Below, piece after piece: positions 19,642 through 22,844 of a DNA stretch of 64,000 nt. This stretch comes from Novosphingobium indicum (GTDB lineage: Bacteria; Pseudomonadota; Alphaproteobacteria; Sphingomonadales; Sphingomonadaceae): assembly GCF_014645195.1 (NCBI RefSeq), contig NZ_BMLK01000006.1, positions 124,001-188,000 of the forward strand. The letters are read 5' to 3'. Each line of letters begins with the position of its first letter. Within the stretch, counting starts at the first letter, position 1. The position numbers and the translations under genes were made by a program. The notes beneath the pieces were generated by a model, which was given only the letters and a program-made list of their open reading frames with translations, searched no databases and had not been told where the DNA came from.

Positions 19642-20400
19642 ATGAAGCTGATGGCGTCAGAAATACTCGATAATCAAGGCCGTGGTGAAGCATCATGGCA
19701 GTGGCCCTCCATTCATGCCGAAGGGCGCAAGTTCGGAGCGATCGCCGGCGGCGTAGCGCTGATTGGCTGGTTGCTGCTCGGCCCTTGGGTAGGCTGGCCG
19801 CTTGCAGTGCTGACGCTTTGCGTCCTGGCCTTCTTCCGCGACCCGGTGCGCGTGACGCCCCAGGACGACCGCGGCATTGTGGCGCCGGCCGACGGGCTGG
19901 TGACGCTGATCAGCAAGGTCGCGCCGCCGCGTGAACTGACGGTGGACGACGGGTCGGGCTCTGCGCCGATGCCGAATGCGCCGGTTACCCGTGTCTCGAT
20001 TTTCATGTCGGTGTTCGACGTGCACATCAATCGCGCGCCGATTGGCGGTACTGTCAAGCGCGTGATCTATATTCCCGGCAAGTTCGTGAACGCAGACCTC
20101 GACAAGGCGAGCGAAGAGAACGAGCGCCAGCACGTGCTGATCGAGCGTAGCGACGGCACCCGCATCTGTTTCACGCAGATCGCCGGCCTTGTGGCGCGGC
20201 GCATCGTGCCTTTCATCAAGCCGGGCGATTTCATCGCTGCCGGTCAGCGCGTCGGCCTGATTCGCTTTGGCAGCCGTGTTGACGTCTATCTTCCCGCTGG
20301 TGTGGAGCCGCGGGTGGTGATGGGTCAGAAGACGATCGCCGGCGAAACTGTCCTTGCCGAACTCGGCGCCGCACCTCTGATCGAGGGCGTTGTGCAGTGA
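19642..20400 (+). CDS. psd: Phosphatidylserine decarboxylase (short, alphaproteobacterial type)
   Basis: A 252-residue enzyme that converts phosphatidylserine to phosphatidylethanolamine. Its pyruvoyl group forms by self-cleavage between Gly210 and Ser211 in RFGSRVD. Two membrane helices near residues 31-65 anchor it, and [13 protein letters not shown] near 121-133 is a family signature. It lacks the LGST form of the long E. coli enzyme, as expected for the short class. The stop overlaps the GTG start of pssA, so the two steps from CDP-diacylglycerol to PE are made together. Confidence 0.96.
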
Positions 20401-21275
20401 GTATTGAACCCGGCGACGGATCGGCTCCGGAACACGATGGGTTTGTGGAGGGTAAGGGCGCCGGCCGACGCCGTCTCGCGCGCGGTCTCTCGATGCGCGC
20501 CATTGTGCCCAATGCCATTACTGCCGCCGCACTGTGCGCGGGCCTGACCGGCATTCGCTTCGCCATCGGTGGTGATTTCGAGCGTTCGGTGCAGGCTGTG
20601 ATCCTGGCCGGGCTGCTCGACGGTATCGACGGTCGTGCCGCGCGCCTACTCAAGGCGCAGACGCGTTTCGGCGCTGAGCTCGACAGTCTCGCCGATTCGA
20701 TTTCCTTCGGCGTCGCCCCCGCGCTGATCGTCTATCTTTGGAGCCTCCACCAGTTGCCGAGCGTGGGGTGGATCGCGGCTCTGGCCTTTGCGATCTGCTG
20801 CGTGCTGAGGCTGGCGCGTTTCAACGCGCGGCTCGACATGCTCGATCAGCCGCACAAGCAGGCCGGTTTCCTGACCGGCGTGCCTGCTCCTCTGGGGGCA
20901 GGTCTCGCTTTTCTTCCGCTCTATCTGTGGATCGCCAGCGGCGTTTCCGAGTTTGCCAATCCCATCCTAGTCAGCGGATGGATGGTTCTCTGCGCTTTCC
21001 TGATGATTTCCAGCTTGCCGACGCTGAGCTGGTCGCGGCTGCGGCCGCCTCCCAGCCTGCGTCTGGGCATGATTGCCCTTGTGGGGCTGACCATGGCGGC
21101 GCTGCTTACCGAGCCGTGGTTCACGCTTGTGGCGATTACGATCGTCTATCTGCTGCTGATCCCGATCGGTCTGGTGACGTACGCCAAGGTCAGGCGGCAA
21201 GCGCCAGCCCAGGCCACTCCAGACCCTGCGCCGGAGTATTTTGACGAACAGGGCGCACCGCTCGGTCCATCCTGA
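20397..21275 (+). CDS. pssA: CDP-diacylglycerol-serine O-phosphatidyltransferase
   Basis: A 292-residue membrane enzyme that makes phosphatidylserine from CDP-diacylglycerol and serine. The CDP-alcohol phosphotransferase motif is seen in [26 protein letters not shown] (about residues 80-105) with its D-G-x2-A-R and paired Asp. Seven or eight hydrophobic segments follow. It begins with GTG at 20397, overlapping psd by 4 bases. Its last 86 bases overlap a convergent small gene on the other strand. Confidence 0.96.
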
Positions 21276-21462
21276 GCGCGAACGGCCCGGGATAGCGCCT
21301 GCGTTCAATCGACTTCCAGTTGATGGCCATTTCCCCGGGACAGGCTTTCAGCTCGCCCCGAAGCGAAAGCGCGCGCTTGCCATGGCGACGCCAGCTTGCG
21401 GCAATGATGCCGGCAGAGATTAGGGCGGCAAAGGCGAAGAGGCAGGCAGCGAACGCAGTCAT
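21190..21462 (-). CDS. Small membrane protein of unknown function with SOS boxes upstream
   Basis: A 90-residue protein with one N-terminal membrane helix (residues 2-22, TAFAACLFAFAALISAGIIAA) and a basic cytoplasmic tail (SWRRHGKRALSLRGEL, SIERRRYPGP). A well-spaced AAGGA site precedes the ATG. The 3' end overlaps pssA on the other strand, so the final 28 residues may be poorly constrained. Two LexA-type boxes and a TTGACA element lie 73-126 bases upstream. Small single-span proteins under LexA control include cell-division inhibitors such as SidA of Caulobacter; that link is only a hypothesis. Confidence 0.6.
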   Translation of the reverse strand: MTAFAACLFAFAALISAGIIAASWRRHGKRALSLRGELKACPGEMAINWKSIERRRYPGPFALRMDRAVRPVRQNTPAQGLEWPGLALAA

Positions 21463-21534
21463 GACCGATCCTTTCGAGCCATCGTCCGCGACATGTGTGC
21501 AGGTCAGTGGACGGCTTGTGGAAAACGCTAATCT

Positions 21535-21588
21535 GTTCTAATAATGTTCTTGCGAGCTTTTGTTCGCTTTTTGTTCCTAAGTTGTCAA
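21535..21588. promoter_or_regulatory. Tandem LexA (SOS) boxes with promoter elements
   Basis: Two exact alphaproteobacterial LexA boxes, GTTC-N7-GTTC, at 21535-21549 (spacer TAATAAT) and 21562-21576 (spacer GCTTTTT). On the minus strand TTGACA (21588-21583) lies just before the second box, so LexA would sit on the promoter of the small membrane-protein gene at 21190-21462. On the plus strand TTGTGG (21516-21521) and TAATAA (21539-21544), 17 bases apart, could drive the VOC gene; this second promoter is weaker evidence. Confidence 0.75.
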
Positions 21589-21722
21589 GCGCTAATTGGA
21601 ACATTGCGTCGTAAGGCCATCATTCCGTCTCCCTCGGCGACAGCTCCGCCTGATTGGCGTAGGCTTCCACACCGCCCCGGATGCCTTCATCCGGGGATCC
21701 TGGAACGAAGATGAGGCAGGTG

Positions 21723-22094
21723 ATGGCAAAGGTTACGGGGTTGGGCGGCGTGTTCTACGTCGTGAAGGATCCGGCCGCTACGCGAGCGTGGTATCGCGAT
21801 ACGCTCGGCATCGATGGCGAATATGGGCCGATGCTGCTGTGGTCGGAAGAGAAGGGCGAGAAGCCCTATTCGCTCATCAGCCACTTTTCGGACGAGACCT
21901 ACATTCGGCCGGGCGCAGGCGCTTTCATGATCAATCTGCGCGTCGATGATCTCGATGCGTTCGTCCAGGATCTTCGCGCCAAGGGTATCGACGTGCTGGA
22001 TTCGGTCGACGAGGGGTACGGCAAGTTCGCGTGGCTTCTCGATCCCGATGGCGTGAAGATCGAGCTTTGGCAGCAATGCGAGGCACCGGAATAG
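21723..22094 (+). CDS. VOC-fold (glyoxalase/bleomycin resistance-like) protein
   Basis: A 123-residue protein with two beta-alpha-beta-beta-beta units of the vicinal oxygen chelate fold: GGVFYVVKDPAATRAWYRDTLGI at the start and FAWLLDPDGVKIELWQ at the end, the latter with the usual metal-site Glu. The N-terminal metal His is not evident, so enzymatic activity is uncertain. The ATG at 21723 follows AGGCAGG; an in-frame ATG at 21711 is an alternative. It is flanked by two small membrane-protein genes on the opposite strand and by SOS boxes upstream. Confidence 0.85.
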   Translation: MAKVTGLGGVFYVVKDPAATRAWYRDTLGIDGEYGPMLLWSEEKGEKPYSLISHFSDETYIRPGAGAFMINLRVDDLDAFVQDLRAKGIDVLDSVDEGYGKFAWLLDPDGVKIELWQQCEAPE

Positions 22095-22181: not shown

Positions 22182-22472
22182 TCAGGCCGCGCTTCTGGCC
22201 GTGCGCGCGTAATGATGCAGGCGATGCGTAATCGGTTTGGGCCGCAGACGGCGGCGCATGTGTCGCGGCAGTGGCAGAGCGTCAATCTCCAGCTCAGCCC
22301 CGGCACGAGGATCCATGGTGTGAATGGTAATCTCTTGTACCGTATGGGCACCCGCCAGCTCGGTGCGTAGTCGTGCGATTGCAGGAAGGGCGGACTTGAG
22401 ACTTATCCAGATGGTCACGAATGCGGCGATTGCCGCAAGGGTGAAAAGTAGAGATGGAATGACACTCATCAT
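22182..22472 (-). CDS. Small membrane protein of unknown function
   Basis: A 96-residue protein with an N-terminal membrane helix (residues 5-26, IPSLLFTLAAIAAFVTIWISL), a helix with the LRTELAGA segment, a predicted strand (VQEITIHTMD) and a very basic tail (RHMRRRLRPKP). An AAGGAG ribosome site lies 5 bases before the first of two adjacent ATGs, which supports expression. The layout recalls the neighbour at 21190-21462 (membrane helix followed by LRxEL), so the two may be distant relatives. Function unknown. Confidence 0.7.
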   Translation of the reverse strand: MMSVIPSLLFTLAAIAAFVTIWISLKSALPAIARLRTELAGAHTVQEITIHTMDPRAGAELEIDALPLPRHMRRRLRPKPITHRLHHYARTARSAA

Positions 22473-22844
22473 GTGTCTCCTTCGGCGATATCACCCCCCG
22501 GTGACTTTCAAAAACCCCCAACAGATATTCGCGTTCTTGAAGTGTTAGCTAATTTACTGTCATATTTGCCGATTAAAAGCTTTTAAGAGCCTGCCGTTCC
22601 CAAAACGGACCGGAATCTGTTCCGAAACGGAGGAAAGTGCGGCGAATCGCCCGAAGTGCGCGATAGAAGGGGGCTGGCTTTCCATCGTGAATGCCTCTAA
22701 GGGCGAGCGCGCTTAGGCGATCGGCCCCGAATCGGGGGGCGGCAACCTCTGCAAATCCACATGGAAAGCACACATACCGGTGCCGCGGCGGGCTGATCTG
22801 CACGGTTCCAGCTTTCCAGAGGCATAACCGGAAAGGAATTACTT
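22473..22844 (+). other. Non-coding region before rpsB with a structured leader
   Basis: About 370 bases without a convincing gene. The left part serves the minus-strand small membrane-protein gene and has a near-match LexA box (GTTC-N7-GTTA at 22533-22547). The right part is the rpsB leader, with the hairpin listed separately. AT-rich DNA around 22540-22585 may hold promoters; no firm -35/-10 pair was fixed. Confidence 0.5.
22762..22818 (+). ncRNA. Candidate structured mRNA leader of rpsB
   Basis: An outer stem TGGAAAGC (22762-22769) with GCTTTCCA (22811-22818), and an inner stem ACCG(G)TGC (22776 on) with GCACGGT (22800-22806) with one bulged G. It ends 26 bases before the rpsB start and just before its AAAGGA site, where an S2-binding autoregulatory element would be placed. 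The role is inferred. Confidence 0.5.

Follow-up and report, generated by a model that had tools for sequence, protein, structure and literature searches.

The question raised by this locus is whether the paired LexA-type boxes at 21535-21576 in the window (the whole stretch of 64,000 nucleotides of Novosphingobium indicum DNA that was analysed) place the gene of a small membrane protein under SOS control, and whether its product could act on cell division. How alphaproteobacteria other than Caulobacter halt division after DNA damage is, to our knowledge, largely unknown, and homology is a poor guide to SOS inhibitors.

Two exact GTTC-N7-GTTC boxes are present on the + strand at 21535-21549 and 21562-21576, with starts 27 bases apart, as claimed in the first-pass annotation; the minus-strand TTGACA that it placed by the boxes (21588-21583) and the 90-codon minus-strand ORF with a ribosome site, 73 or more bases from the boxes (21190-21462), were likewise confirmed. 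In gene direction, box 1 (21562-21576) is the one nearest the -35 hexamer and lies between it and the inferred -10, while box 2 (21535-21549), 27 bases downstream of box 1, covers the inferred transcription start region; an operator of the GTTC-N7-GTTC type over a promoter, as expected for a member of the LexA regulon, is therefore found at 21535-21576. A single box is weak as evidence: the window contains three, where 1.96 are expected and 31 of 100 shuffles reach three, and genome-wide the single exact boxes are near chance (139 versus 117 for the reversed pattern). In the 4.96 Mb genome, boxes on the same strand with 5-30 bases between them occur as a pair only once, and the reversed control gives none; being the sole such pair, and being kept in relatives, the box pair is not due to chance.

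Both boxes fit a narrower motif, GTTCN5WTGTTC (GTTC-N5-WTGTTC), which has 36 sites genome-wide versus 9 for the reversed form, an enrichment that is partly post hoc, since the motif was picked after viewing the genome box list. The ORFs scanned beside part of the 36 sites (two sets of 10 proteins, 15 distinct) include RecA, LexA, RadA/Sms, DnaN, a PA0069-type radical SAM protein, MmcB and an S24 peptidase, together with proteins that have no evident SOS role, namely a GST, a glyoxalase, LuxR/sigma-like, TrwB-like and TraI-like proteins and a weak radical SAM match; two scanned neighbours gave no match, L065 in NCBIfam and L077 in Pfam, and several of the sites fall inside ORFs. The LexA operator of this genome is thus among the sequences that the motif picks up, along with some background. 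LexA-type boxes are found in the same genome upstream of the PA0069-type radical SAM gene and of dnaN (L061 and L067) and, on contig C24, near the TrwB-like and TraI-like conjugation genes and the S24 peptidase (L082-L084), which are possibly part of an SOS-linked mobile element. In Caulobacter, the LexA consensus is GTTCN7GTTC and about 97% of the SOS promoters carry a single box (PMC12700426); by this standard, tandem boxes are unusual.

At E 0.01, a search with the single protein sequence reached 25 of 61 genomes, with many weak matches; a profile of the 90-aa protein matches 103 of the 195 genomes of the same genus. All 108 profile places were examined (96 + 12), of which 103 are best hits (92 + 11) and five secondary. 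Every best hit (103/103, that is 92/92 and 11/11) has an exact box, oriented with the gene, in the 320 bases upstream of it, two or more boxes being found in 60 of them and one only in 43, while the reversed-pattern control gives 1/96 and 0/12 places; no box stands at the five secondary hits, of which four are tandem paralogues and the fifth (L311) lies elsewhere. These counts are not independent, the genomes being related, yet the sequence between the conserved elements has widely diverged. The named relatives with tandem boxes (15/15) are 13 Novosphingobium, one Porphyrobacter (a MAG) and Sphingomonas sp. IC081. Three loci (L117, L119 and L120) have three GAAC-N7-GAAC matches upstream rather than two, the last two overlapping. 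The earlier proposal of LexA control had named absence of the boxes from orthologous loci as its refutation; they were looked for and are present at all the best hits. Together with the occurrence of the motif at recA, lexA, radA and mmcB, this conservation makes it almost certain that the small membrane protein gene is under LexA control, and its SOS control is strongly supported by the sequence evidence.

The -35 hexamer TTGACA (21583-21588, minus strand) has at most one mismatch in 90 of the 92 loci and starts 9-12 bases before box 1, so that the spacer from the -35 to the inferred -10 is taken up by box 1; among the 54 loci having two or more boxes, the first-to-last spacing is 26-29 in 52. 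The leader contains a DnaA-box-like 9-mer, TTTTCCACA (21517-21525, minus strand), followed by a second GTCCAC at 21507-21512. This 9-mer is exactly TTATCCACA, which we take to be the DnaA consensus, in 28/92 loci, and a version with no more than one mismatch is found in 77/92, versus 0.8 in mononucleotide shuffles and 0 for the reverse complement; among the 40 such loci where it reads TTWTCMACA, 34 have it exactly 24 bases past the point at which the last box starts. In 47/92, a second TCCAC, CCCAC, TACAC or TAAAC follows, spaced as an adjacent 9-mer would be. The tandem DnaA-like pattern matches the genome at the leader site only, and as a general genome feature it was rejected on that ground. 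That DnaA acts at the leader is a tentative reading of these motifs, to which we give somewhat less than an even chance. At the colicin E8 promoter, similarly, two LexA molecules and a second DNA-binding protein (AsnC) delay induction (PMC4482635), whereas the gene described here is chromosomal and its second site is DnaA-box-like and putative.

The gene (21190-21462, minus strand) starts at 21462, behind a ribosome binding site, GAAAGGA (21469-21475, minus strand), which lies before the ATG and recurs in relatives. Its product is a 90-aa single-span membrane protein, with a TM at about residues 2-23 by hydropathy, the basic side towards the C-terminus and the end GLALAA; members of the family have 79-111 aa, including a long basic tail. 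A single TM near the N-terminus, as in small inner-membrane inhibitors of the SidA type, is found in 92/92 loci, and its C-side is more positively charged in 91/92, both by hydropathy only; the TM 19-mer is without charge in 88/92 and has a small-xxx-small pattern in 86/92. The AlphaFold model, of poor quality (mean pLDDT 66.5, pTM 0.34), has one helix at 2-40, followed by a low-confidence tail. For the part that does not overlap pssA, 23 chosen close sequences yield 251 usable pairs with a median dN/dS of 0.35; the fraction of pairs under 1 rounds to 1.00, with dS near saturation (median 1.06). Judged by these ratios, the protein is under purifying selection. Known families gave nothing in Pfam, in PADLOC or, above the cut-off, in NCBIfam: neither the Pfam search at E 0.1, with no family (SulA included) in any of 13 members, nor the NCBIfam search, with no hit above cut-off for the window protein, assigns it to the SulA family.

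Outside the genus the profile is blind, its matches in the order being limited to 9 of 296 genomes, all of the same genus; therefore, the neighbouring pssA was used as anchor for the locus. pssA was found in 112 of 118 genomes of the order and, among 40 same-genus genomes that the profile had missed, in 37; 30 loci of each set were examined to begin with, then the remainder of the family. With the window, G122 and G189 added to these 37, there are 40 loci of the same genus: 36 have a box in the 700 bases that follow pssA, 35 a one-span ORF at the right distance from the box, and in 34 such an ORF ends in AA. In other genera of the family (32 loci) the box is found in 26, box and one-span ORF in 23, and an AA end of such an ORF in 21, the reversed control at pssA loci giving 1/40 in the same genus and 0/32 in the others. 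For the family as a whole, 62 of 72 pssA loci have a box (window and G122 included), against 1/72 for the reversed control. In the other families of the order, neither the box (0/20) nor such an ORF (0/20) was found in 20 loci chosen from 77 with pssA, in some of which the pssA end may have been misplaced by the script; at one of these other-family loci (L272) a box lies 860 bases away from pssA.

The exceptions within the family are of different kinds. Three loci have a box and a TM ORF with another end (LTA in L180, RVA in L192, AVA in L325), while L189, L197 and L222 keep an ORF ending in AA and have boxes only with one mismatch. L187, L202, L204 and L205 have no such gene beside pssA; L213 and L318 run out at contig ends; L316 and L317 have a box and no ORF by the criteria used; and in L314 box and ORF are off the set distance. 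The recurrence of the arrangement beside pssA across the family, these exceptions and the failure of the profile together indicate a gene that looks widespread in the family and fast-evolving, and it is best explained, from sequence and position, as an SOS gene belonging to the Sphingomonadaceae.

In 91/92 loci the gene overlaps the 3' end of pssA (20397-21275, + strand) antisense, the overlap in the window being 86 bases, and an Ala-Ala end (LAA, AAA, VAA and similar), read to the first stop, is found in 103/103 best hits. Opposite the Ala-Ala-stop, the wobble bases of pssA are frozen while its second positions vary: against the last two Ala codons it reads A-x-G and C-x-G, with G at the third position of both codons in 91/91 rows (those in the common frame, which L096 does not share; they include L155, where the site is past the end of pssA). 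The codons at the first site are AGG in 64, AAG in 26 and ACG in 1, and at the second CGG in 83, CAG in 5, CCG in 2 and CTG in 1. Arg at the first site is always AGG (64/64), while in the rest of pssA AGG accounts for 30 and CGG for 487 of 1462 Arg codons. Positions where a change would be silent in pssA stay fixed and those silent in the small ORF do not, so it is the AA-stop of the small ORF that selection keeps; by this codon pattern, the AA end of the small protein is itself selected. Its origin as a by-product of pssA was rejected by the same pattern, by L155, which has no overlap with pssA and yet keeps the box and ends in AAA, and by the non-overlapping paralogues, of which 4/5 (window copy and four relatives) end in AA.

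The tmRNA (ssrA) tag of this genome is ANDNEALALAA, to which the GLALAA end of the window protein is similar. In CtrA, the motif DPNEQVNAA sits at the C-terminus. ClpX degrons ending in AA include ssrA AANDENYALAA and CtrA DPNEQVNAA, the latter labelled as N-terminus in the table of that source, where poly-Ala tails are also named (PMC8138137), and the terminal di-alanine is recognised by ClpX (PMC9601184). The tail described here shares the terminal AA with these ClpXP C-degrons, but it is written into the gene itself, that of a LexA-controlled membrane protein. A free Ala-Ala C-terminus is found in 103/103, on a tail whose accessibility is taken from a weak model; the AA tail is probably a protease signal, as judged from its sequence.

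The first-pass annotation had also considered the VOC/glyoxalase-like gene on the other side of the boxes (21681-22094, + strand) as a possible second target. This gene is at this place in only 3/92 loci, the window included, and was therefore rejected as a conserved SOS target; in L032 a tail remnant of it was noticed by eye. The part of the SOS claim that concerns the minus-strand gene stands, since the conserved -35 and the conservation belong to it, whereas control to both sides does not. A second small one-span ORF at 22182-22472 (minus strand) is paralogue-like, with a TM, an LRxEL motif and the end SAA, and a sequence with one mismatch, GTTCTTGAAGTGTTA, was seen by eye near 22533. It was rejected as a second SOS gene, with no exact box in the window and none (0/4) at the second copies of relatives (G029, G035, G025 and G111).

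In Caulobacter, sidA is presumably located near dnaE/rpsB. At rpsB loci of the wider class (30 examined of 133), there are 3 boxes within 1.5 kb versus 5 in the control, and no positional link to sidA is claimed. SidA of Caulobacter crescentus is a 29-aa SOS inner-membrane protein that binds FtsW; the small protein resembles it in being small, inner-membrane, SOS-controlled and alphaproteobacterial, with the LexA site GTTCN7GTTC (PMC4211646), but has 79-111 aa and a long basic tail ending in AA. Compared by description, the gene also differs from sidA in its tandem boxes (60/103) and in being antisense to pssA. DidA, from the same organism, is a 71-aa single-span division inhibitor (PMC4211646), although SOS-independent and driven by DriD. 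YneA of Bacillus subtilis is an SOS one-span division inhibitor whose TM binds TM7 of FtsW (PMC13396833) and which is cleared by proteases for recovery (PMC6051672); it has an extracellular LysM domain and is handled by YlbL and CtpA, while the small protein has no Pfam match to LysM, a tail predicted to be cytoplasmic and an ssrA-like end. Its shape also fits SosA, a further SOS division inhibitor. In the available part of a Sphingopyxis study, the induced SOS genes are lexA, recA, radA, dinG, imuAB-dnaE2 and SRAP, with no such small gene among them (PMC6472365). No paper on a sphingomonad SOS division inhibitor was found among the matches listed, a scope that leaves out most subscription literature, so that this absence is not proof.

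By analogy with these systems, there is an even chance that the small protein inhibits division. The best explanation, in which we place about as much belief as doubt, is a LexA-locked one-span SOS protein that delays septation and is cleared via its AA tail. LexA on the boxes would shut the promoter tightly, and DNA damage would release it; the protein would insert N-out, C-in, and its small-residue TM helix could dock on a late divisome membrane protein (FtsW, FtsI or FtsN, as for SidA, DidA and YneA), thereby delaying septation, the divisome target being suggested by analogy only. Once LexA returns, ClpXP or another AAA+ protease would pull the disordered AA tail and clear the protein, while the DnaA-box-like leader site may lock the promoter a second time, in step with replication initiation. 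Several observations speak against this explanation. The fast divergence (profile in 103/195 genomes of the genus and none beyond it in 296 genomes of the order) is unlike what a conserved contact with FtsW might lead one to expect; the structural model is poor; 43 of the 103 best hits have a single exact box; and L180, L192 and L325, with box and TM ORF, lack the AA end.

At this level of analysis, a toxin that depolarises the membrane would give much the same picture. SOS-induced small membrane peptides of the TisB/DinQ type I toxin class, which would depolarise the membrane and slow growth without acting on the divisome, share SOS control and the single span with the small protein; DinQ is a toxic one-span SOS peptide that may depolarise membranes and, according to a section heading of the source, leaves filamentation unaffected (PMC3567139). 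This identity is nevertheless unlikely, since the long basic tail of these 79-111 aa proteins is under purifying selection, the mostly uncharged TM rich in small residues is taken as unlike an amphipathic pore peptide, and Rfam at the gathering score finds only four tRNAs in the window and no antitoxin RNA, though an undescribed one could exist. That the SOS-controlled membrane protein serves some other purpose, such as anchoring or regulating repair, proteolysis or phospholipid enzymes, has a similarly small probability. In favour of such a role, there is no homologue of known function and the fixed neighbour, pssA, is a lipid enzyme; nothing specific speaks against it, but the best analogues known to us are division inhibitors.

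The overlap with the pssA 3' end would also allow an effect of the transcript itself, an SOS antisense RNA lowering phosphatidylserine synthase and coupling lipid synthesis to damage. This is improbable, because selection acts at the protein level, as indicated by dN/dS and by the selected AA-stop, and because L155 keeps box and AA end without the overlap. That the boxes are chance occurrences, or sites of another regulator, is a reading for which the near-chance number of single boxes in the genome could be invoked; it is very improbable, given that they are kept at all the best hits, against a reversed control of 1/108 places, and that the same motif stands at recA and lexA.

A wider form of the preferred reading, the LexA-locked delay of septation, would see in these genes a Sphingomonadaceae checkpoint family, with a LexA and DnaA promoter lock, an ssrA-like C-terminus and a division arrest that ends itself via ClpXP; it is speculative and rather unlikely in this complete form. 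If it were true, the arrest would respond to DNA damage and also to how far replication initiation has come, and the gene would lie on the back of pssA, whose codons bend so as to keep the degradation tail intact.

Promoter, position and C-terminus together track one gene across the family even where the protein profile fails, and the antisense overlap is a clear case showing which of two proteins dictates the codons. The built-in ssrA-like tail suggests a concrete mechanism of recovery, and the conserved signals of the gene are candidates for a switch-on by DNA damage and a quick destruction afterwards. Thus, by analogy with the known inhibitors, this small protein of unknown family is plausibly a good candidate for a division brake in sphingomonad bacteria.
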